From contig NZ_CP016757.1 in the NCBI RefSeq assembly GCF_001701045.1, positions 1,233,501-1,297,500 of the forward strand: DNA of 64,000 nucleotides, in the 5' to 3' direction. Source of the stretch: Cloacibacillus porcorum. Lineage in GTDB: Bacteria; Synergistota; Synergistia; Synergistales; Synergistaceae. The notes beneath the pieces were generated by a model. The model was not told the DNA's origin. It made no database searches and saw only the letters and a program-made list of their open reading frames with translations. Of the stretch, positions 4,274 to 18,120 are shown piece after piece; position 1 is the stretch's first letter, and every line of letters starts with the position of its first letter. A program made the position numbers and the translations under genes.

Positions 4274-5179
4274 ATGGCGAAGGTATTATGTTTTGGTTCC
4301 ATGAATATCGATTATACATATAAGGTACGCCATTTTGTAAAAAAGGGAGAGACCATCTCCGCCGATTCCTTACGCATATTCAGCGGCGGGAAGGGGCTGA
4401 ACCAGGCGATTGCTCTCTCAAGGGCGGGGGCGGAGTCCTGCCTCGCCGGCTGTATCGGCGAAGACGGCCTGTTCCTGCTGAAAGAGCTGGAGGCCGCGGG
4501 CGTCGATACCGGATACGTTCGTGTGCTGGGAGATGTGCGGACTGGCAGCGCGGTCATTCAAAACGACGCGGAGGGCGATAACTGCATCATCCTGTACGGC
4601 GGCGCGAACCGCGCCGTGACGCGGGAGCAGGCGGATATCGTCCTGGCCGGTTTCCAACGCGGCGACTGCCTTGTCCTGCAAAACGAGATAAACGAGATTC
4701 CATACATCATCCGCCGGGCGCATGAAAGAGGGATGTGGGTGGTGCTGAACCCTTCGCCGATGGAGGTCTCGGTTCTGGACTTCCCCCTGGAATATGTGGA
4801 CTGCTTTATGCTGAACCGCGTAGAATCGGCGCAGCTGCTGGGAATTGAGAACGAACCGCGCGCGGCGGAGGCGGAGCTTATGGCGGCACTGGGTGAAAAA
4901 TTCCCAGCAGCGGAGATCATCTTGACGCTGGGTGAGGAGGGCTCCGCCTATATTGGCTGCGGCGAGACGGTGCGCCAGCGCCCCTATCATATAAAAACGG
5001 TCGACACGACCGCCGCCGGAGACACCTTCACGGGGTTCTTCATCGGCGGCAGGATGAGAGGGCTTTCCGTATCGGAGGCGATGGATCTGGCCTCCAAAGC
5101 GGCGGCGCTGAGCGTAACCAAACCGGGGGCCTCTCCCTCAATCCCCACTCTGGCGGAGGTCACGGAGTATTTTTCGTAA
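4274..5179 (+). CDS. rbsK: PfkB-family carbohydrate kinase, ribokinase type
   Basis: A 301-residue sugar kinase of the PfkB/ribokinase family. It carries the N-terminal signature region FSGGKGLNQAIALSRAG (ribokinase typically GGKGANQA) and the C-terminal PfkB motif DTTAAGDTFTGFF with the catalytic aspartate in AAGD. These enzymes transfer phosphate from ATP to the primary hydroxyl of ribose or a similar furanose. The start is ATG at 4274, six bases after GGAGGA; a GTG at 4259 would precede the ribosome site and is rejected. It stands alone between terminators. Substrate assignment to ribose is by similarity in motif pattern only. Confidence 0.85.
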   Translation: MAKVLCFGSMNIDYTYKVRHFVKKGETISADSLRIFSGGKGLNQAIALSRAGAESCLAGCIGEDGLFLLKELEAAGVDTGYVRVLGDVRTGSAVIQNDAEGDNCIILYGGANRAVTREQADIVLAGFQRGDCLVLQNEINEIPYIIRRAHERGMWVVLNPSPMEVSVLDFPLEYVDCFMLNRVESAQLLGIENEPRAAEAELMAALGEKFPAAEIILTLGEEGSAYIGCGETVRQRPYHIKTVDTTAAGDTFTGFFIGGRMRGLSVSEAMDLASKAAALSVTKPGASPSIPTLAEVTEYFS

Positions 5180-7146: not shown

Positions 7147-9573
7147 ATGAAGACCGGACGTTCTTTATCCGTTCTGTTGGTTGCTTTTGCCTTGCTGTTG
7201 TCTTTTTCTGTCTGTGGGTTTGCGGCGGGGGAGGGTGATTTATTGATTTCAGATGCAGACGGTCTCCGGGCCTTTGCGAAGGAAGTCAATGAAAATCAAA
7301 ATTCATACGAGGGCAAAGTTGTTAAGCTCACGGCCGATATTGATTTGGCAAACGAGCCGTGGACGCCAGTGGGGAGCAATAGCGGTTCCTTTAAGGGAAC
7401 ATTTGATGGGCAAGGATATGCTATAACTGGTATGTACGTGGACGCTCCTTTTAATAATAGGGCTGGTTTTTTTGGTCTGATAGATAACGCCGTTGTAAAG
7501 AATCTCACGGTATCTGGCGATATAAAAGCATCAGCAAACAACATTGGTATTATTGTAGGAAATGTCTCGTGGGATGGTGGCAGCAGGATTGAAAATTGCA
7601 GAGCAGTTGGTTCGATATTAAATGAAGCAACTGGCAACAACATTAACATCGGCGGGATCATAGGAACTTCTCAAGCTGGTGGTGCGGAAATATACATAAT
7701 AAATTGCATTTCGGAAGTGAACATTACAACTGGCAATTTAAAGTGTGGTGGAATTGTAGGTTTCTCTGAAAATACTTATATACTTAATTCCTACAGTTCT
7801 GGACAAATTAAAATTAATGTTGAAGCAGGGGCAAGGAATGCTGGTTATGGTGGAATTGCAGGTTACGCAAACGATAATGTACAGGTAATTAACTGTGTGT
7901 CGTCTGTGAAATTTGACACAGAAACAGATTACGTGGGCGGTATAGTGGGAAACTGTAACAAGAAGATCTCTATATTTAATTGCGTTTCTGGTTCCGAAGT
8001 TGAAGGCCGGAATAATCTTGGCGGTATATCTGGCAATCAGCAAAACGTGGACTGTTCAATAAGAAATTGCGCAGTAGTTGGTAATGTCAAGTCAGTCACA
8101 GGCGGAAGATATCCGGATGTGGGTGCTATATCAGGAAATGATGCCGGTGCGATAGCTAATTGTGGCTGGCTAAAGAGTGTGGCAGCGAAAGCTGTAGGTG
8201 GGGGGGATACTAGCAACCAAGGCACGGATATCTCAAATTTTAGTGATTTGTCTAACGTAGTCTGCGCCTACACCGTGGACCCTGCCTCCCTCTCATTTAA
8301 TAGGGAAGCAGGCATAGCTAATCCTCTCTTTCGTACCTGGCCCGGCAATGATCCATCGGCGGTCTTAAATTGGAGCTCCAGCGATGTTCCCGGCGTCACC
8401 TTAACGCAGGATGGTGATAATAACACCGTAATCTCGGCGACGAAAAAGGGCGTATTCAATGTCGGTGCCTCCCTGACACTCACCGCCACAAAGTTTGGGA
8501 AAAGCGACGTCTTACCTTTGCGTTTGGCCGGCGATACCGCCGACACTTCCTCCAATCCGTTATTGGCCCCGGCGCTTTCCGCCGCCGTCAGGGTCACGAG
8601 CGACATTACACGCGTAAAATCAATAAAGATAACAAACGCTCCGCAGTCGCTGAAAGAGGGTGAGGCCTTTAATCTCATCTGCGAAGTGCTGCCGGAGGAC
8701 GCTACAAATAAAGATCTCGTCTGGAGCAGCAGCAATAATAAGGTGGCGGCGGTCACGGGGCAGAGTGGGGAGATCACGGCGCTTTTGGCGGGTGAGACGG
8801 TGATAACCGTGGAGGCGAGGGACGGCAGCGGCATACGCGATCAGTTTACCCTCACGGTGAAAAAAGATTATCTCTCCAACCCGAAGCCGGAACGGCCGGC
8901 GGTGAAGACCGATACGGCGGCGCTCTCCAAGCCTGAATACTACGGAGAGAGCGAAATAGAGGAATTGGCGAAGGCCATCAGCATGGATAAGAGCCTGTTG
9001 ACGGCCAAGGAGGACGGCAGCGTAATTTTGCGCCAGGATGTTGTCGGCGGGGCGCTCGAATCTGTGAAAAAAGAGAACCCCGGCCTTTACTACGAGAGCG
9101 TGATGCCGGTGCCTCTCATCAAGGCGGCCTGCGGTTCAGCCGAGAGCGGCCGGATTATCGCCTTTGGTTTTACGGTGAGCGGGGATAACTTCGGCAAGGC
9201 GGACAGCGCGCGGGATATTAAGGTGATGAAGGTGCTTCCGGACGGCAGGGGCGTGCTTTTCAAGGCCATCGGCGAAGAACGCGAGATCGAAGACCGCAGC
9301 TGTGCCCTTTATAAGGACGGCGAAATATACAGCGGTCCGGTGATGCCGGAAGAGAATTATGTCCTGACTCTCTTTATAAAAGACGGCGGGGAGTTCGACC
9401 TTGACGGCGCGGAAAATGGCTCTGTCATAGACCCGCTGGTGGTGCTGAAGGCGAAGGAGGCCCCCGCGCGTGAGAGTTCGTCTGGCGGCGGCTGCAGCGC
9501 CGGGTTTGGCGGAGCCGCGCTTCTCGCGCTAGCGGCGCTGCCGGTACTGCTGCGCGGACGGCGCCGGAGGTAA
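7147..9573 (+). CDS. Exported GLUG-repeat and Big-2 surface protein with Synergist-CTERM sorting signal
   Basis: An 808-residue cell-surface protein. Residues 1-27 form a signal peptide ending FSVCGFAAG. Residues about 75-330 contain repeated GLUG-type units (GGIVGFSENTYILNSYSSG, GGIAGYANDNVQVINCVSS, GGIVGNCNKKISIFNCVSG), which in other proteins form a beta-solenoid. A bacterial Ig-like (Big-2) domain follows at about 495-575, then an uncharacterised alpha/beta region. The end is a Ser/Gly linker, the motif GGGCSAGFGG, a hydrophobic helix and RGRRRR. This matches the Synergist-CTERM tripartite signal, which I know from family descriptions of Synergistetes and which presumably directs processing and anchoring. 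The GLUG region is AT-richer than the C-terminal half. Ligand or adhesion role is unknown. Confidence 0.85.
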   Translation: MKTGRSLSVLLVAFALLLSFSVCGFAAGEGDLLISDADGLRAFAKEVNENQNSYEGKVVKLTADIDLANEPWTPVGSNSGSFKGTFDGQGYAITGMYVDAPFNNRAGFFGLIDNAVVKNLTVSGDIKASANNIGIIVGNVSWDGGSRIENCRAVGSILNEATGNNINIGGIIGTSQAGGAEIYIINCISEVNITTGNLKCGGIVGFSENTYILNSYSSGQIKINVEAGARNAGYGGIAGYANDNVQVINCVSSVKFDTETDYVGGIVGNCNKKISIFNCVSGSEVEGRNNLGGISGNQQNVDCSIRNCAVVGNVKSVTGGRYPDVGAISGNDAGAIANCGWLKSVAAKAVGGGDTSNQGTDISNFSDLSNVVCAYTVDPASLSFNREAGIANPLFRTWPGNDPSAVLNWSSSDVPGVTLTQDGDNNTVISATKKGVFNVGASLTLTATKFGKSDVLPLRLAGDTADTSSNPLLAPALSAAVRVTSDITRVKSIKITNAPQSLKEGEAFNLICEVLPEDATNKDLVWSSSNNKVAAVTGQSGEITALLAGETVITVEARDGSGIRDQFTLTVKKDYLSNPKPERPAVKTDTAALSKPEYYGESEIEELAKAISMDKSLLTAKEDGSVILRQDVVGGALESVKKENPGLYYESVMPVPLIKAACGSAESGRIIAFGFTVSGDNFGKADSARDIKVMKVLPDGRGVLFKAIGEEREIEDRSCALYKDGEIYSGPVMPEENYVLTLFIKDGGEFDLDGAENGSVIDPLVVLKAKEAPARESSSGGGCSAGFGGAALLALAALPVLLRGRRRR

Positions 9574-9591
9574 TTTGAGAAGATAATAACA

Positions 9592-9627
9592 GCCCGCGGC
9601 CTGATGACAGATGCCGCGGGCGTTTTT
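9592..9627. terminator. Terminator between convergent genes
   Basis: GCCCGCGGC at 9592-9600 pairs with GCCGCGGGC at 9613-9621, followed by GTTTTTG. It lies between the convergent surface-protein and flavoprotein genes and may serve both strands. Confidence 0.75.
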
Positions 9628-9639
9628 GTATTTTTTAAG

Positions 9640-10983
9640 TTATCTCCTGCCGAGCGCTTTCTCGATCAGGTCGCCCGCGACGTTTACGATATCCTTCGGC
9701 GTGCCGAAGGGCGGGGCGTAGCAGAGTTCGATGCGCGTCAGGTCGTGCGCTGTTGCGCGCATACGGATGGCCGTTGCCATCACGTCGCAGCGTTTGTCCA
9801 CGCCGTCCAGTCCGGTAAGCTGTGCGCCCAGTATCCTCCCCGTGCCTTTTTCAAAGACCACCTTCATGAATATCTCCTCGGCTCCGGGGTAATAACCGGC
9901 GTGCGAGGGGTATTCGAGGCTTACGCTGCCGCAGTCTATGTTGTGGCGGCGCGCCTTCTCCTCATTGATACCAGTGCAGGCCGCCGTCATGCCGAATATT
10001 TTCAGGATGCCGCTGCCCTGCGCGCCGTCGTAACGGCTGTCGCCGCCGAGGATATTTTCCGCCGCGACGCGCCCCTGCCTGCTGGCGGGGCCGGCGAGCG
10101 GGACAAAATCCGCTTCGCCGGTGACGAAGTTTGTCACCTGTACGGCGTCGCCGACGGCGTAGATGTTGGGATCGGAGGTGCGCATACCCGCGTCGGTGAT
10201 TATCGAGCCTTTTTTGTTCATCTCCAGCCCCGCCGCCTGCGCGAGGCCGGTGTCAGGGCGCACGCCCGCGGCGAGGATCACCATGTCGGCGCTCCTTCTC
10301 TCAGGACACATCTGCACCGCGAGACCTCCCTCATCGTCGATGCGCCTTACCTGGCAGCCTATCTGTACGCCGACGCCGTTGTTTTCGATATGGCGCTGGA
10401 CGCGCGCCGCCACATCCGTGTCGAAGGGGGCCATCAGCTTGTTGCCCATCTCGACTATGAATGTGTCTATATCCCTTTTTTTGAGGTTCTCGGCGCACTC
10501 CAGGCCGATATAGCCGCCGCCGATGACGACGGCCTTTTTTACGCCGCGCTCGGTTATCCAGCTCTTAATAGCCTTTGCGTCGCCGAGGCTTCTGAGGGTG
10601 AATACTCCCGGCAGCGCCGCCCCCGGGAACGGCGCGCGGTAGGGTTCCGCGCCGGTGGCGATCAGCAGCTTGTCATAGCTCTCAGTGTACCGTTTTCCGT
10701 GAGACTCGACGGTTACGTTCTTATTTTTACGGTCTATCGCGGTGACGCGGCTCTCCACCCGTACCTCCGCGCCATGTCTTTCTTTGAACTCCTCCGGTGT
10801 GAAGGGAGTCAGAGAGGAGGCGTCCTTTATTTCATCGCCGATGAAATATGGAAGGCCTCAGGTTCCCAATGAAATGAAGGGCCCCTTCTCAAACATCACC
10901 ACCCTGGCTTCCTTTGACAGTGAACCGATACGCGCGGCGGCTGTGGCTCCTCCGGCCACGCCCCCGATGATCACAATTTTCAT
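9640..10983 (-). CDS. Predicted selenoprotein: CoA-disulfide reductase/NADH oxidase-family flavoprotein with Sec at the catalytic Cys position
   Basis: A 447-residue flavin-dependent pyridine-nucleotide oxidoreductase. From ATG at 10983 (GGAGG nine bases upstream) the frame encodes the FAD-binding start VIIGGVAGGATAAAR, then FISLGT, an in-frame TGA at 10858-10860 (codon 42), then GLPYFIGDE and the complete rest of the enzyme: NAD-binding VIGGGYIGLECAENL, second FAD motif IYAVGDAVQV, and C-terminal YAPPFGTPKDIVNVAG. In relatives this place reads NCGLPYY, with the redox-active cysteine at 42-43 of the chain. The UGA therefore sits exactly on the catalytic Cys, and a SECIS-like hairpin follows at once. 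I infer selenocysteine insertion. Ignoring this would give a 372-residue protein without its FAD-binding N-terminus. The partner thiol (CoA disulfide, persulfide or O2) is unknown. Confidence 0.82.
10817..10859 (-). promoter_or_regulatory. SECIS-like hairpin directly downstream of the in-frame UGA
   Basis: Read on the minus strand, TATTTCATC and GATGAAATA form a perfect 9-bp stem around the loop GGC (10837-10839). An outer stem GAGGC/GCCTC (10855-10859 with 10817-10821) closes it, with CTT pairing to AAG between. The loop begins 18 bases after the UGA and has G in its first two positions; both agree with the general bacterial SECIS rules as I know them. It lies within the coding sequence, as bacterial SECIS elements do. 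Confidence 0.7.
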
Positions 10984-11310
10984 ATACTACCGCCTCCGCC
11001 GCCGCGCCATGACGCGCGGCGCAAGATATAAACAATGTAGCCGATCTCCGCCCATTTTAGTGTGCCTCCCGCGTTACGCAACTGAAAAAGGAGGGATATG
11101 GGTGCGTGAAAACACGTAACGGCGGCAAATACCCGCCGGCTCTGAATCAGCGTCAGCTCCAAACTCTCTTACCGCATAATAGCATACGGCGCCGCCAAAG
11201 CGTATGACCGGTTTTGCCGGTCGTTACAAATATCTCTGCGATGTCCTGTCGGGCATTTTTGTGAATAACATCTTTATTGCCGCTATCTGCCAATATATTC
11301 AAGGATGGGG

Positions 11311-11339
11311 TTAACAAAAATAAAATCTTATTATATAAT
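11311..11339 (+). promoter_or_regulatory. Promoter of the ZTP riboswitch-pflB transcript
   Basis: TTAACA at 11311-11316 and TATAAT at 11334-11339 with a 17-bp spacer. Transcription would start near 11346, just ahead of the riboswitch. In the remaining intergenic stretch from 10984 to 11310 I see only the ribosome site of the minus-strand flavoprotein gene. Confidence 0.7.
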
Positions 11340-11354
11340 GTCCAGACATTAATC

Positions 11355-11432
11355 ATCGTCCGTGGTCCCTGACGGATAATTGTGGAGCACCACAGTGGGA
11401 TCACGGTGATATAGAGCCGACCGTCTGGGCAG
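11355..11432 (+). promoter_or_regulatory. ZTP (pfl motif) riboswitch
   Basis: The leader of pflB contains the hallmarks of the pfl RNA motif, which senses ZTP/ZMP, the alarmone of folate (10-formyl-THF) shortage. The 3' signature GCCGACCGTCTGGGCA (11416-11431) matches the conserved CCG-CC-CTGGGC segment. The 5' part has a GTCCGT...ACGGA stem (about 11359-11376) and a GTGG-loop-CCAC hairpin with GTGGGATCACGG. The aptamer runs directly into a terminator hairpin that shares its 3' bases GGGCA, the usual arrangement for ligand-dependent antitermination. Exact stem limits need covariance modelling. Confidence 0.85.
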
Positions 11433-11458
11433 CATTCCTTTTCGATGCTGCCCTTTTT
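11427..11458 (+). terminator. Riboswitch expression-platform terminator
   Basis: GGGCAGCAT at 11427-11435 pairs with ATGCTGCCC at 11445-11453 and is followed by TTTTT. The 5' arm overlaps the aptamer's conserved CTGGGCA, so ligand binding would block terminator formation and allow pflB transcription. Confidence 0.8.
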
Positions 11459-11522
11459 CGTGTTTTACATGAAAAAGGGCGCAGGGAAGGAATGTTTTTA
11501 TTATGAACGGGAGGAAAGCTGT

Positions 11523-13754
11523 ATGAGAGAGGAATGGCAGGGTTTTCGCGAGGGGAGATGGCTGGAGGCCGTCGATGTGAGGGATTTTATCCAAACAAAT
11601 TACCGGCCTTATGAGGAGGGCGCGGAGTTTCTCTGCGGCCCGACGGAGCGCACGGAAGCCCTCATGAAAAAACTTGAACATCTTTTTGACCTTGAACGGC
11701 AGTTTGGCGGCGTGCTGGATATCGATACGCAGACGGTGACCTCGCTGACAAATTACCGCGCCGGGTATCTGGACAAGGAGCGGGAGATCATCGTCGGCCT
11801 GCAGACAGACAGGCCGCTGCGCCGCGGCGTCAACCCCTTCGGCGGCATCGCGATGACGCGCAAGGCCTGCGAAGCCTACGGCTATTCGCTGTCGGACAAG
11901 GTGGAGAGGGAGTTTCAATACCGCACGACACATAACGACGGCGTATTTCGTGTCTATTCCGATGAGATCAAGACAGCGCGTCACTGCGGCATTATTACGG
12001 GACTGCCCGATTCTTACGGGCGCGGGCGCATCATCGGCGATTACCGCCGCGTCGCGCTTTACGGCGTGGACCGCCTTATAGAAGAAAAGAGGAGAGACAA
12101 GGCGCGCATCGCGGCTGCGGGCGTGATGCTGCAGGATAACATCCGGCTGCTTGAGGAGCTTTATCAGCAGATAAATTTCCTCGGCAAGCTCAAGGAGATG
12201 GCCTCCCTTTACGGCTTCGACATCTCCCAACCGGCGGCGAACGCCCGCGAGGCCGTACAGTGGCTCTATTTCGCCTATCTCGGCGCGATCAAGGAGCAGA
12301 ACGGCGCGGCGATGTCCATCGGGCGCGTTTCGACCTTCCTCGATATTTATTTCGAGCGTGACCTGGCGCGGGGACGGCTTGACGAGCGCGGCGCGCAGGA
12401 GATAATGGATGATTTTGTGATGAAGCTGCGCATGGCGCGTCATCTGCGTACGCCGGAGTATAACGAGCTCTTTGCGGGCGATCCGATGTGGATAACGGAG
12501 GCCCTTGGCGGCGTGGGCGAGGACGGACGTACGCTGGTTACAAAAAATACCTACCGTATGCTCAACACCCTCTATAATCTGGGGCCGTCCGCCGAACCGA
12601 ATCTCACGGTGTTGTGGTCGGAGGCGCTGCCGGAGGCCTTTAAACGCTTCGCGGCGAAGGTCTCCTGCGATACCGACGCGATACAGTACGAGAACGACGA
12701 CCTCATGAGGCCGGTCTACGGCGACGATTACGCGATCGCCTGCTGTGTCTCGGCGATGCGGGTGGGTAAGGAGATGCAGTTCTTCGGCGCGCGCGCCAAT
12801 CTCGTGAAGCTGATGCTGATGAGCCTCAACGGCGGGCGCGACGAGAAGAGCGGCGAGCAGGTCGGCCCCGCGCACGCGCCGTATGAGGGAGAGATCCTTG
12901 AATATGACAAGGTGCTGGCGCTGATGGATCTTTACCGCCCGTGGCTTGCCGGGACCTATGTTTCGGCGATGAATATGATCCACTATATGCACGACAAATA
13001 TGCCTACGAAAAGACGCAGATGGCGCTGCACGACACCGAGGTGCACCGCTATATGGCCTTTGGCGCGGCGGGACTCTCCGTGCTTGCCGATTCGCTGTCG
13101 GCGATAAAGTACGCGAAGGTGCGTGCGGTACGCGGCGAAGACGGGCTTATCACCGATTTTATCACCGAGGGCGATTACCCTGCCTTTGGCAACGACGACG
13201 ACCGGGTCGACGCCATCGCGCGCGAACAGATAGAGCTGTTTCTCAACGAGCTGAAAAAGAACCCAGCCTACCGTGGGGCGGAACACACGCTGTCGATCCT
13301 CACGATAACCTCGAATGTAGTCTACGGAAAAAAGACCGGCTCGACGCCTGACGGGCGCATGGCCGGCGAGCCGTTTGCGCCGGGTGCGAACCCGATGCAC
13401 AACCGCGAGAAGAACGGGGCGCTGGCCTCGTTGAACTCCGTCGCCAAGCTGTCTTACGCGGCCTGCCGTGACGGCATCTCCAACACCTTCTCGATCATCC
13501 CCGAGGCGCTGGGCCATTCTCAGGATGAACGGCTCGGCAACATGGTATCGGTGCTTGACGGTTATTTCGCGCAGGGAGCGCACCACCTCAACGTCAACGT
13601 GCTGAACCGCGAGACGCTCTGCGAGGCGATGAAATATCCGGAGAAATATCCGAACCTCACGATCCGCGTCTCCGGCTATGCCGTGAACTTCCATAAACTC
13701 TCGCGCGCGCAGCAGCGTGAGGTGGTCTCGCGCACCTTCCACGGCGTCATGTAG
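11523..13754 (+). CDS. pflB: Pyruvate formate-lyase (formate C-acetyltransferase)
   Basis: A 743-residue glycyl-radical enzyme that converts pyruvate and CoA to acetyl-CoA and formate in anaerobic cytoplasm. The adjacent active-site cysteines are seen in [11 protein letters not shown], and the glycyl-radical loop near the C-terminus reads [18 protein letters not shown]. These mark a true pyruvate formate-lyase rather than a diol dehydratase. The start is ATG at 11523, seven bases after GGGAGG; upstream in-frame starts lie within the riboswitch terminator region and are rejected. It is followed one base later by its activase. Control is by the ZTP riboswitch, linking formate/one-carbon supply to folate status. 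Confidence 0.95.
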
Positions 13755-13755
13755 G

Positions 13756-14469
13756 ATGAAGGGGCGCGTCTGCGGTTTTCAGAGCATGGGAGCGGTCGAC
13801 GGTCCCGGCCTGCGCTGCGTGGTATTCGCGCAGGGGTGTCCGCTGCGCTGCGCTTACTGCCATAATCCGGAGAGCTGGGCGGCGGACGGCGGATATGCGG
13901 TCTCCGTGGATGAGCTGGCCGCGAAGATCGAACGGCTGCGCCCCTACATTATCAAAAATGGCGGCGTCACGCTCTCCGGAGGCGAGCCTCTTATGCAGCC
14001 GGATTTTGCGGCGGCGCTGTTTCGTGAGCTGAAGGCGCGCGGCTGTCACACGGCGCTTGACACCTCGGGGGCCTGCGGAACGCGCGGCGCGGCGGAGGTG
14101 CTGCGCTGTACCGACCTTGTGATCTGCGACATAAAATTCACGACGGAGGAGGACTACGCCAGATACTGCGGCGGCTCGCTCGCGCCGGTGATGGAGTTCC
14201 TCGCGCTGACGGCGGAGATGAAAAAACCGCTGTGGCTGCGGCAGGTGATCGTGCCCGAGATAAACGACGGGGCGGCGGAGGCGGCGCGCCTTGGCGAACT
14301 GGCGCGCGGCTTCGCCAATCTGGAGCGCCTCGAACTGCTGCCCTTCAGAAAAATATGCGCCGCGAAGTACGAAAAACTGGGTATCGCCTTTCCGTTGAAG
14401 GATTATCCCGAATGTCCAACGGAGCGGATCGCGGAGCTGCAGAGGGCAGCCGGTATCCGGCGGCCATAA
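13756..14469 (+). CDS. pflA: Pyruvate formate-lyase-activating enzyme (radical SAM)
   Basis: A 237-residue radical-SAM activase that generates the glycyl radical on PflB. The [4Fe-4S]-binding CX3CX2C motif is in FAQGCPLRCAYCHNPESW, followed by the SAM-binding GGVTLSGGEPLMQPDF region. Start ATG at 13756 lies immediately after the pflB stop, so the genes are translationally coupled. Length is normal for PflA. The partner is pflB upstream. Confidence 0.94.
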   Translation: MKGRVCGFQSMGAVDGPGLRCVVFAQGCPLRCAYCHNPESWAADGGYAVSVDELAAKIERLRPYIIKNGGVTLSGGEPLMQPDFAAALFRELKARGCHTALDTSGACGTRGAAEVLRCTDLVICDIKFTTEEDYARYCGGSLAPVMEFLALTAEMKKPLWLRQVIVPEINDGAAEAARLGELARGFANLERLELLPFRKICAAKYEKLGIAFPLKDYPECPTERIAELQRAAGIRRP

Positions 14470-15095: not shown

Positions 15096-15449
15096 GGGGA
15101 CGACAGGTTTCGACAGCAGATGGAGGGTCGGAGGGAGCGTGCCGAGGATGGGGAATCCTCGTTAATCCGGCTCCAAAACAATAATTGTCGAAGACAATTA
15201 CGCACTCGCTGCTTAGTTAAGCAGCGCGCTCTCCGGGACTTCCGCCGTCGGGTCCCGCTAGAGCGTCACAAAGATGGCTGGGATTGCGGCAGAGCTTTTC
15301 GGCTGACGTCCGAGATTCAGGAAAGGCTAGGGAAAGAGTATCCTGTCTGTGGGAGCCTCCAACCCGAAATTTAAAGCATAGACTACGCACGTAGCGCCCT
15401 CCAGGTCGGCCTCTGTTGGACCGGGGTTCGATTCCCCGCGTCTCCACCA
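15096..15449 (+). ncRNA. ssrA: Transfer-messenger RNA (tmRNA, SsrA)
   Basis: A 354-nt tmRNA. The 5' GGGGACG (15096) pairs with 3' CGTCTCC (15439-15445) to form the acceptor stem, followed by ACCA encoded in the gene. The T arm GGACCGGGGTTCGATTCC is intact. The tag reading frame ends in codons for TIIVEDNYALAA (15178-15213) and TAG at 15214, matching the usual -ALAA degradation tag. A pseudoknot-rich middle is evident but not drawn. The gene's 3' end is the attachment site of the island that follows; the repeat begins inside the acceptor stem, so the gene is restored on integration. Confidence 0.95.
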
Positions 15450-15492
15450 GACATTATTATCAAGCCCCCGCAAGGGGGCTTGTTTCGTTTTT
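15438..15492. repeat. Left attachment site (attL) of the tmRNA island, with terminator
   Basis: A 55-bp segment identical to 30574-30628. It covers the last 12 bases of tmRNA, a short spacer and the terminator hairpin AAGCCCCCGCAAGGGGGCTT plus T run. Duplication of a tmRNA 3' end is a standard footprint of tyrosine-integrase elements. Confidence 0.9.
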
Positions 15493-15672
15493 CAAGCCTT
15501 CTCAAAGTATTGTTGAATACTGTATAATACTGGAAAATTCGTGGTTTGGGGTATTGTGTGCTTTCTCATTTTGTCTCATGTAAAATCAAGCCTAATCACG
15601 AAGAAATTGTACTATAAACTTCTTAAAGTTGTACTAAAACGAAATTTATAGTACAAGGGAGGTCGAGATAGG

Positions 15673-16830
15673 ATGTTGACGGAGATTTCCGTGCGTGATA
15701 TGAAGCCGCGCGACGTTCGCTATATGAAGGCTGACGGCAAGGGGCTTTATCTGGAGGTTGTTCCGGCTGGACAAAAGTATTGGTGGCTGCGTTTAACCAT
15801 GGATAAAAAAACTAAGAAGTTTATGTTGGGAAAGTGGCCCGACCTTTCCGTGAAGGAGGCCCGCGAGGCCTGCGCTTTGAAGAAGCGGGAGATCGGTATC
15901 GCCTCCGGGCTTGACGTGCCTGATGTTAGGTTTGGCGAGCTGGCTGAGGAATGGTATAAAACGCGCATTTTGCCGCAGTCTGAGAATTATAGCCGGACTG
16001 TCCGCATGAGGCTGGATAAGTACGTCCTGCCGCGGTTTAAGGATAGGCCGGCGGCTTTTATAAAGGGTAAAGAGATTCTTGCTCTTTGTAAGGAGATCGA
16101 GCAGGAGGGGTATATCGAGACGGCGCATCGGGTGCTGGATATTTTTGCGGCGGCGTTTCAGTTCGGGATTCCTACCGGTATTGTCGCGGCCGATCCTACC
16201 GCCGGTCTTTCCGTCAATCTAATGCCTGTACGGAGCGCGCATTTCGCCGCGCTGACTGACAGGCGGGATGTGGCGGAGCTTATGCGCGGAATAAGGTATT
16301 ATAGGCAGCGGCGGGTGCGCAACGCGCTTTTTTTCAGCGCTTATACTTTCTGCCGTCCAGGGGAGGTTAGAGGCGCGTTGTGGCATGAGTTAGACCTGTT
16401 GCGCTGCGAGTGGCGCATCCCTGCGGAGCGCATGAAGGGCAAAAGGGAGCACGTCGTGCCGCTGTCACGGCAGGCTGTCGAGATATTAAAAGACGAAAGG
16501 CTGCTGCTTGACGAGGATGGCAATAAGTCGGAGTTCGTCTTTCCCTCGGAGCGGTCACCGCTGCGGCCGATGTCGGAGAATACGGTGCGGGTAGCTATCC
16601 GCTCTATCGGCTTTGGAGCTGACAAGATGACGGCGCACGGTTTCCGGCATATGGCCTCAACAATTCTCAATGAGTCCGGGCTATGGTCGCCGGACGCGAT
16701 TGAGATGCAGCTTGCACATTACGCCGGCGGGGTGCGCGAGGTTTATAACCAGGCGAAGTATATGCCGGAGCGAGTGAGGATGATGCAGTGGTATGCGGAT
16801 GAGCTGGATGGGCTGAGGGATGAGGGATAG
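15673..16830 (+). CDS. int: Tyrosine site-specific integrase (P4-type)
   Basis: A 385-residue integrase. The N-terminal arm-binding domain (about 1-85, MKADGKGLYLEVVPAG and LGKWPDLSVKEAR) is of the P4/DUF4102 type; a core-binding SAM-like domain lies at about 90-190. The catalytic tyrosine-recombinase domain shows Arg in FCRPGEVRGALW, His-x-x-Arg in TAHGFRHMAST, a following His in QLAHYAGG and the nucleophile Tyr in REVYNQAKY. P4-type integrases commonly use tRNA or tmRNA 3' ends. Its position 180 bp from attL and orientation away from tmRNA fit. AGGGAGG lies 12 bases upstream of ATG. Confidence 0.93.
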   Translation: MLTEISVRDMKPRDVRYMKADGKGLYLEVVPAGQKYWWLRLTMDKKTKKFMLGKWPDLSVKEAREACALKKREIGIASGLDVPDVRFGELAEEWYKTRILPQSENYSRTVRMRLDKYVLPRFKDRPAAFIKGKEILALCKEIEQEGYIETAHRVLDIFAAAFQFGIPTGIVAADPTAGLSVNLMPVRSAHFAALTDRRDVAELMRGIRYYRQRRVRNALFFSAYTFCRPGEVRGALWHELDLLRCEWRIPAERMKGKREHVVPLSRQAVEILKDERLLLDEDGNKSEFVFPSERSPLRPMSENTVRVAIRSIGFGADKMTAHGFRHMASTILNESGLWSPDAIEMQLAHYAGGVREVYNQAKYMPERVRMMQWYADELDGLRDEG

Positions 16831-16992
16831 TAGGCGGATGGTCTATTGGGTGAGCGTAGGTCTTCATGCAGGTACACACATCTTACGCCTATGAGTTAAG
16901 TGCGGCTGGTGGTACTTGAAACTGGAGAAGCATTTTAGATGATTGTGACAATAAATGTGTGCAATGAAAATAAATGGGCGTTGAGAAATATA

Positions 16993-18057
16993 TCAGCGTC
17001 CAATGATCTTTAAGTGTCTTGCTATGCTCTGTGCTATCACTCTACCCAGTTCCACAGGAACGGCATTGCCGATTTGTCTGCCTAAAATTTTAGTGACATA
17101 CTTTCCACCGGGTTTTACAAATTGATAATCCATCGGAAATGTTTGGAAGAGAGCGGCCTCGCGCAAGGAGATTGCCCTATCCTGTTCGGGATGCCCAAAT
17201 CTCCCGTTACCATATCCGAAGCATAAAGTCGTCATCGTCGGAGAAGGCTCGTCCCACGACATTCTGCCATAGACGGAGGCGAAAGTCGCGCCGCTCGTCT
17301 TTTTATGACATTCTGCGATTATAGAGTCGGGCCAGTCGCGCCACGTACCTCCTGGCTTCGACGCTTTGATTCTGCTCAGATTCTTAGCTTCCAGCCTAGC
17401 GCATCGATGCAGCGGATCGTCCTGCGACGTCTCGCCGGCTTTTAAGGGCGGCAGTGCGCTTATTGCGTCTCTCACTGTTTTATAATCCGCAGGTGTTTTG
17501 CACGTCGGTGGGATGAGGTCTATCGCTGCGTATTTGGATCCGAGGACCACCAAGCGTTTTCTATGTTGCGGTATCCCATATTCTTCACAATTTACAATAA
17601 ATTCAGTGACATAATATCCCGCTTCTAGCAGAGATTCTTTAAAATCCGATAAGACTTTCCCTTTATCAAAAACTTTCAGCGCCGGAACGTTCTCCATGGA
17701 AAAGACATCGGGAGAGACTTCTTTAATCAGCTCTGAAAACTTATACAGCAGCCGCCATTTGCCGTCTTTTTTCCTATCGTCGGCGTTGTTGTATGTGGAG
17801 AACGGCTGACACGGGGCGCATCCGATTAGAATTTTTATATTGGTGTCTTTCAGGTATCCTTTGATTGTATCGCTTTTTAATTTCATTACGTCTTCTTTTA
17901 AAAAGACGGCGTGGTTGTTGAATTCGAAAGGAAATTGGCAAGTACCGTCAAAATCTATACCCGCCGTGATATTGAAACCTTCTTTTATAAAACCATGTGT
18001 CAATCCGCCTGCGCCGCAGAAAACGTCAACTACAGCCGTACGCTTTACAATGCACAT
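16993..18057 (-). CDS. dcm: DNA (cytosine-5-)-methyltransferase
   Basis: A 354-residue C5-cytosine methylase. Motif I is VDVFCGAGGLTHGF, motif IV with the catalytic cysteine is GCAPCQPFSTY, motif VI is SMENVPAL, motif VIII is PQHRKRLVVLGS, and motif X is RQIGNAVPVELG. All key residues are present. The start is ATG at 18057, six bases after GAGGTG; a GTG at 18066 overlaps that site. A Vsr gene follows the usual Dcm-Vsr association, two genes upstream on the same strand, suggesting it methylates a sequence whose deamination Vsr repairs. No separate restriction endonuclease is visible, so it is either a solitary methylase or part of the cluster with the GHKL-TIR protein. Confidence 0.93.
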   Translation of the reverse strand: MCIVKRTAVVDVFCGAGGLTHGFIKEGFNITAGIDFDGTCQFPFEFNNHAVFLKEDVMKLKSDTIKGYLKDTNIKILIGCAPCQPFSTYNNADDRKKDGKWRLLYKFSELIKEVSPDVFSMENVPALKVFDKGKVLSDFKESLLEAGYYVTEFIVNCEEYGIPQHRKRLVVLGSKYAAIDLIPPTCKTPADYKTVRDAISALPPLKAGETSQDDPLHRCARLEAKNLSRIKASKPGGTWRDWPDSIIAECHKKTSGATFASVYGRMSWDEPSPTMTTLCFGYGNGRFGHPEQDRAISLREAALFQTFPMDYQFVKPGGKYVTKILGRQIGNAVPVELGRVIAQSIARHLKIIGR

Positions 18058-18120
18058 ATCTGTCACCTCTTTCTTTATACAGTATTATAGCTAAATCATG
18101 CGTTCTCGTCGATGTATTCT

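Follow-up and report, generated by a model that had tools for sequence, protein, structure and literature searches.

The locus and the selenocysteine machinery

The window analysed here, a stretch of 64,000 nucleotides from the genome of Cloacibacillus porcorum, carries at 9640..10983 (-) a complete coding sequence of 447 aa, which frame, profile, alignment and structural model identify as that of a putative selenoprotein, a CoA-disulfide-reductase-like, FAD/NADH-dependent flavoprotein. The frame runs from ATG 10983-10981 (-) to TAA 9642-9640 and its sole internal stop is the UGA of codon 42, at 10860-10858 (-), in the context ...FISLGT-U-GLPYFIGDEI...; this codon is aligned with the redox-active Cys42/Cys43 of relatives and is predicted to be read as selenocysteine (Sec). 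A candidate ribosome-binding site, GGAGG, lies 9 nt upstream of the ATG (10993..10997 (-)), and a SECIS-like hairpin follows directly after the UGA (10819..10857 (-), core 10828-10848). The frame confirms what a preliminary description had noticed, namely an intact N-terminus from ATG 10983, a UGA as codon 42 and a full-length remainder. Ordinary annotation was also expected to cut the protein to 372 residues, and the longest conventional ORF downstream of the UGA is indeed a GTG ORF of 372 aa (9640..10758 (-)), without the FAD-binding N-terminus and the Sec residue.

On one side the gene has a convergent gene for a Synerg-CTERM protein and on the other a divergent gene for pyruvate formate-lyase, and it stands alone between them; a functional clue was sought in this neighbourhood and none was found. 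Local gene order is the same in a congeneric species (G014) and different in a Synergistaceae MAG of another genus (G043). The convergent gene, at 7147-9573 (+), encodes an 808-aa protein with a Synerg-CTERM sorting domain and is unmatched in the syntenic region of G014. On the other side, a ZMP/ZTP riboswitch (RF01750 in Rfam, 47.9 bits) at 11357-11437 (+) lies directly before the pyruvate formate-lyase gene at 11445-13754 (+) (TIGR01255), which has a pyruvate formate-lyase activase next to it (13717-14469); the Rfam name of the motif, pfl, agrees with the known association of riboswitch and enzyme. Further along, a tmRNA gene at 15096-15449 (+), with smpB just upstream, is followed within ~220 bases by an integrase (15673-16830 (+)) and then by a DNA cytosine methyltransferase (16993-18066 (-)), and the 15096-18066 region resembles a mobile element that has inserted at the 3' end of the tmRNA.

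The genes for Sec synthesis and insertion, which the preliminary description had proposed to look for, are all present in the genome, a single contig of 3,585,187 bases. The tRNA-Sec lies at 2128382-2128474 (77 bits, the gathering score being 47), selB and selA adjoin at 1346071-1349380 (380 and 562 bits, respectively) and selD is found at 1842426-1843355 (321 bits), with one in-frame TGA of its own.

Conservation of the UGA codon and the hairpin

Three Synergistaceae genomes have the UGA form of the gene: C. porcorum, G014 (87% identity) and G043 (57%), the gene of the latter having the same sequence as the L053 locus. A search of 167 Synergistota genomes with a completeness of 80% or more yielded no further UGA copies at E <= 1e-105. 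The Synergistaceae relatives examined from other genera, with 51-53% identity, have TGC or TGT at the site of codon 42, and the alignments display Cys/Sec exchange at exactly the codon where Cys had been anticipated in relatives; a check of these for other stop-causing mutations found no other disruptions. Between C. porcorum and G014, the Nei-Gojobori estimates are dN 0.070 and dS 0.77 before the UGA, 0.076 and 0.84 after it, giving a ratio of ~0.09 on both sides; selection thus maintains the two halves as a single protein. This ratio, together with the presence of the same UGA codon in a congener and in another Synergistaceae genus, bears out the earlier argument that a random nonsense mutation would be improbable. 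The C. porcorum genome contains also a Cys paralogue (L110, 1340820-1342115) with a longer C-terminus, its extended frame in L066 amounting to 543 aa; this frame, L066:4821-6452 (+), lies ~4 kb from selB-selA (about 10060-13405 (-) in L066), and G014 is arranged likewise.

The hairpin after codon 42 combines a lower stem with a 9-bp upper stem, UAUUUCAUC/GAUGAAAUA, enclosing a GGC loop (GGC or GGU in the Synergistaceae Sec forms); the distance from UGA to loop is 18 nt and the free energy is -14.4 kcal/mol over 42 nt. Searched against Rfam (E <= 10), positions 9400-11600 produced chance matches only and none to a SECIS family at the UGA; three other tests were therefore applied to the hairpin, namely published rules, recoding with synonymous codons and covariation. 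It agrees with the rules for bacterial SECIS elements, which specify a loop of 3-9 nt with G in its first two positions, a distance of 16-37 nt from the UGA and a minimum free energy <= -7.5 (PMC13188914). When an MFE-based version of these rules, devised for this analysis, was applied across the family, 23 of 29 Sec forms qualified vs 24 of 86 Cys forms (Fisher p 1.8e-6, with relatedness ignored). In each of the three species the hairpin is more stable than when the same peptide is recoded with synonymous codons (z -3.0, -1.9 and -2.9). Against dinucleotide shuffles (z -2.8, -0.9 and -2.9) two of the three stand out, and the free energy of the G014 hairpin (z -0.85) is not unusual, a result that counts against the element. 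Codon identity after the UGA is likewise not extreme over all three species, with no 12-codon peak there; in the G000-G043 pair, a 27-nt identical run extends over the hairpin and is joint longest in the gene. Over 11 Sec forms of the 18-nt type, 96% of pairs are kept, with 7 cells compensated on both sides, vs 25-72% for slid partners; because these forms were picked for showing the hairpin, the result is supportive and not independent.

The apex of the hairpin encodes Ile-Gly-Asp as ATC-GGN-GAT in 14 of 28 Sec forms, from Synergistaceae, Thermodesulfobacteriota, one Bacillota MAG and one Tissierellaceae MAG, while Ile-Gly-Asp occurs in only four Cys forms. We infer from this that the SECIS element has steered the amino acids at the apex; the recurrence of ATC-GGN-GAT across phyla may be a new observation. 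One Cys form, in another Synergistaceae genome (G041, L020:1501-2841 (+)), has ATC-GGA-GAT and, again at an 18-nt spacing, a 6-bp counterpart of the hairpin, possibly a SECIS left over from Sec-to-Cys reversion or a product of chance.

Because machinery and hairpin are both in evidence, we infer that UGA codon 42 is decoded as Sec, a reading which looks almost certain from the sequences and which the conservation of the UGA, the Cys/Sec exchange and the dN/dS values support as well, as the preliminary description had thought likely. The UGA could otherwise stem from a nonsense mutation or an assembly error, leaving a pseudogene or a gene expressed only as the 372-aa fragment from GTG 10758. 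A conventional gene caller does see this ORF only, and the related L059 locus looks like a dead or mis-assembled copy; yet the UGA is common to three separate assemblies, purifying selection acts on the N-terminal 41 codons as on the rest, the frame has no other disruption, the hairpin is conserved and the genome has full Sec machinery, so that such decay is very improbable. Even less credible is suppression, by which the UGA would be read as Cys or Trp: this would suit the Cys that relatives have at the position of residue 42, but not the tRNA-Sec and selAB of the genome, nor a selD that needs UGA reading itself, nor a SECIS-like hairpin at the spacing needed for Sec insertion.

Protein family and probable activity

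The read-through protein matches the CoA-disulfide reductase profile TIGR03385 along its whole length (E 6e-135, residues 2-437 on 1-439 of 439), with a score of 450 bits vs a curated cut-off of 578.8; two other CoA-disulfide reductase comparisons give 397 vs 458 and 317 vs 394, and because these scores lie below curated cut-offs the exact activity of CoA-disulfide reductase is not assured. The profile of H2O-forming NADH oxidase, NF046103, scores 266 bits against a cut-off of 600. NADH-dependent persulfide reductases (Npsr) are defined by a rhodanese domain at the C-terminus, some 100 aa long (PMC7969121), which the C. porcorum protein lacks. What it does have are the broad characters of CoA-disulfide reductase-like PNDORs: Pyr_redox_2 and Pyr_redox_dim domains, a single redox Cys/Sec at 42-43 and the Tyr motifs, both CoADR regions being kept (SHAGYYPGA and CYAPPFG). 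In alignments with structurally characterised CoA-disulfide and persulfide reductases (3ntd, 3icr), residue 42 falls on their redox-active Cys. An AlphaFold model, with Sec entered as Cys, has a pLDDT of 91.7; in the PDB it is matched best by the folds of the Shewanella persulfide reductase and of Bacillus CoADR-RHD, with a TM of 0.96.

These two enzymes, Npsr of Shewanella loihica (3nta/3ntd) and CoADR-RHD of Bacillus anthracis (3icr), share with the C. porcorum protein 42-43% identity, the position of the active-site Cys and the Tyr motifs; the latter differs in having Sec for Cys and no C-terminal rhodanese. The stand-alone CoA-disulfide reductase of Staphylococcus aureus (1yqz) resembles it in length, domain order and the single redox Cys next to FAD, but is only 31% identical, whereas the Sec-containing protein groups with rhodanese-fused enzymes in the tree. 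Closest in kind are the Sec FAD-dependent oxidoreductase of the WP_011365774.1 type and the Sec 'NADH oxidase' of Geobacter metallireducens, which have the same TIGR03385/COG0446 fold, the UGxP motif and Sec at the flavin-proximal Cys; the difference is that the Synergistaceae Sec trio forms a clade apart from the Thermodesulfobacteriota and Chloroflexota Sec clades found here.

On these comparisons, the gene very probably encodes a selenoprotein, decoded with SelB, that is a flavoenzyme of the CoA-disulfide/persulfide reductase group. SelB with Sec-tRNA-Sec would bind the hairpin just after codon 42 and the UGA would be decoded as Sec, which, judging from alignment and fold, would replace the single redox-active Cys beside the flavin. 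The product would be an FAD/NADH oxidoreductase, dimeric by analogy, in which electrons would pass from NADH to FAD and then to Sec42; the selenolate would attack a disulfide or per/polysulfide of CoA or of a small thiol, forming a Se-S intermediate to be reduced by the flavin. In known persulfide reductases, a rhodanese Cys takes up the sulfane sulfur and CoA passes it to the Cys beside FAD (PMC7969121). The Sec form, lacking the rhodanese domain, is therefore more likely to use small soluble disulfides or persulfides as direct substrates.

As to the substrate, the CoA-disulfide/persulfide type has about an even chance of being the right one; a point against it is that persulfide reductases of the same fold, such as the Npsr of A. 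fulgidus, may not reduce CoA-disulfide at all (PMC7969121). The protein might also be a genuine selenoprotein with a different function, a NADH-dependent peroxidase or oxidase guarding the anaerobe from O2 or peroxide by Sec-SeOH chemistry. Selenols are good peroxide reductants, the fold is the same as that of NADH peroxidase and NADH oxidase, and 'NADH oxidase' is the name of the Sec family in the literature. Moreover, the A. fulgidus Npsr has NADH oxidase activity (PMC7969121). Nevertheless, the sequence is nearer to CoADR/Npsr than to Nox/Npx, both in that NADH oxidase profile score and in the ranking of PDB sequences, its neighbours in the tree are rhodanese-fused Cys enzymes of CoADR/Npsr type and the CoADR Tyr motifs are kept; hence we consider a peroxidase or oxidase unlikely, though deserving of attention.

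Distribution and evolution of the Sec forms

When 84,980 species genomes were scanned for the pattern, 17 matches were obtained, of which 14 are real UGA copies; the other three (L049, L062 and L063) fall outside genes of this kind and are due to chance. Genomes of Thermodesulfobacteriota, Chloroflexota and Firmicutes have UGA at the same site. The tRNA-Sec scores over the cut-off in 12 of the 14 genomes with real copies; of the two others, one is a MAG whose copy is truncated (L052) and one is the genome of a broken copy (L059). The latter, from an Oscillospiraceae MAG, has UGA at the same catalytic codon, within the match at 4279-4307 (+); it was rejected as a working selenoprotein, its frame being broken 137 codons after the UGA and its genome having no tRNA-Sec over the cut-off, and it is probably a dead or mis-assembled copy. 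Of 118 genomes sampled from the phylum of Desulfoferrobacter, 14 contain a copy with UGA (E <= 1e-80); in every one examined the UGA is at the Cys site, and some have variant motifs such as UETPYY.

In a tree of 108 rows, the Synergistaceae Sec trio forms one clade (support 100) inside Cys enzymes and far from other Sec clades, and the starred branches force at least four changes. A single origin of all Sec forms, in one common Sec clade, is rejected on a 34-row set (delta lnL 339, p-AU 2.8e-60). The trees cover the Sec clades found here, and within this scope the Synergistaceae clade appears to have arisen separately from the others, which may be new. The 108-row tree alone gives no direction of Cys/Sec change; given that all the neighbours are Cys forms, it is simplest to suppose that Synergistaceae gained Sec in place of Cys.

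A C-terminal extension of at least 60 aa is found in none of the 19 Sec forms with enough flank vs 62 of 76 Cys forms. Four close Cys relatives from Synergistaceae were tested, and in each the extension proved to be a rhodanese domain (PF00581); this domain is absent from all three Synergistaceae Sec forms; its lack in the Sec clade, compared with all close Cys relatives examined, may be another new feature. As far as sampling resolves, Sec gain and rhodanese loss in Synergistaceae fall on the same branch. The Cys forms that neighbour the remaining Sec clades are short already, and because of this the association of Sec with a short C-terminus across the family partly reflects shared ancestry.

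The preliminary description had supposed that a Sec flavoprotein of this kind may be little described. This does not hold for its sequence: the Sec NADH oxidase of G. metallireducens has been on record since 2006 (PMC1794560), an ocean survey lists Sec NADH oxidase under PRK09564 (PMC2398784) and two reviews give the Sec family as CoA-disulfide reductase (TIGR03385, UGxP), with Kryukov & Gladyshev 2004 as the source (PMC9312934, PMC13188914). For C. porcorum CL-84(T) itself (GCA_001701045.1), deep-Sep (2025) counts 18 selenoproteins, all from known families and none from a new one (PMC12013277), and the gene with UGA at codon 42 is probably among these 18. The supposition does stand for biochemistry, since no biochemical study of any Sec NADH oxidase or CoA-disulfide reductase was found in the literature searched. 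Because such enzymes have been catalogued as selenoproteins since 2004-2006, the kind itself is not new, and what our analysis contributes is one more member together with some novel detail on its evolution.

The analysis puts right a gene that routine annotation would cut short, and provides a well-supported example, from a gut-associated anaerobe, of a selenoprotein family known, in the literature searched, only from sequence catalogues. Somewhat speculatively, Synergistaceae could have made their own Sec enzyme on one branch together with loss of the rhodanese domain, producing a specialised selenoenzyme with a substrate unlike that of its Cys parents, perhaps small disulfides, persulfides or peroxides, while the need for a SECIS changed the protein itself, converging on the Ile-Gly-Asp (ATC-GGN-GAT) apex in several phyla. 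The paired forms within one bacterial family, Cys enzymes fused to rhodanese and stand-alone Sec enzymes, constitute a natural experiment on what a flavin disulfide/persulfide reductase gains from selenium, and the same pair is informative also on how a SECIS within the coding region constrains its protein.
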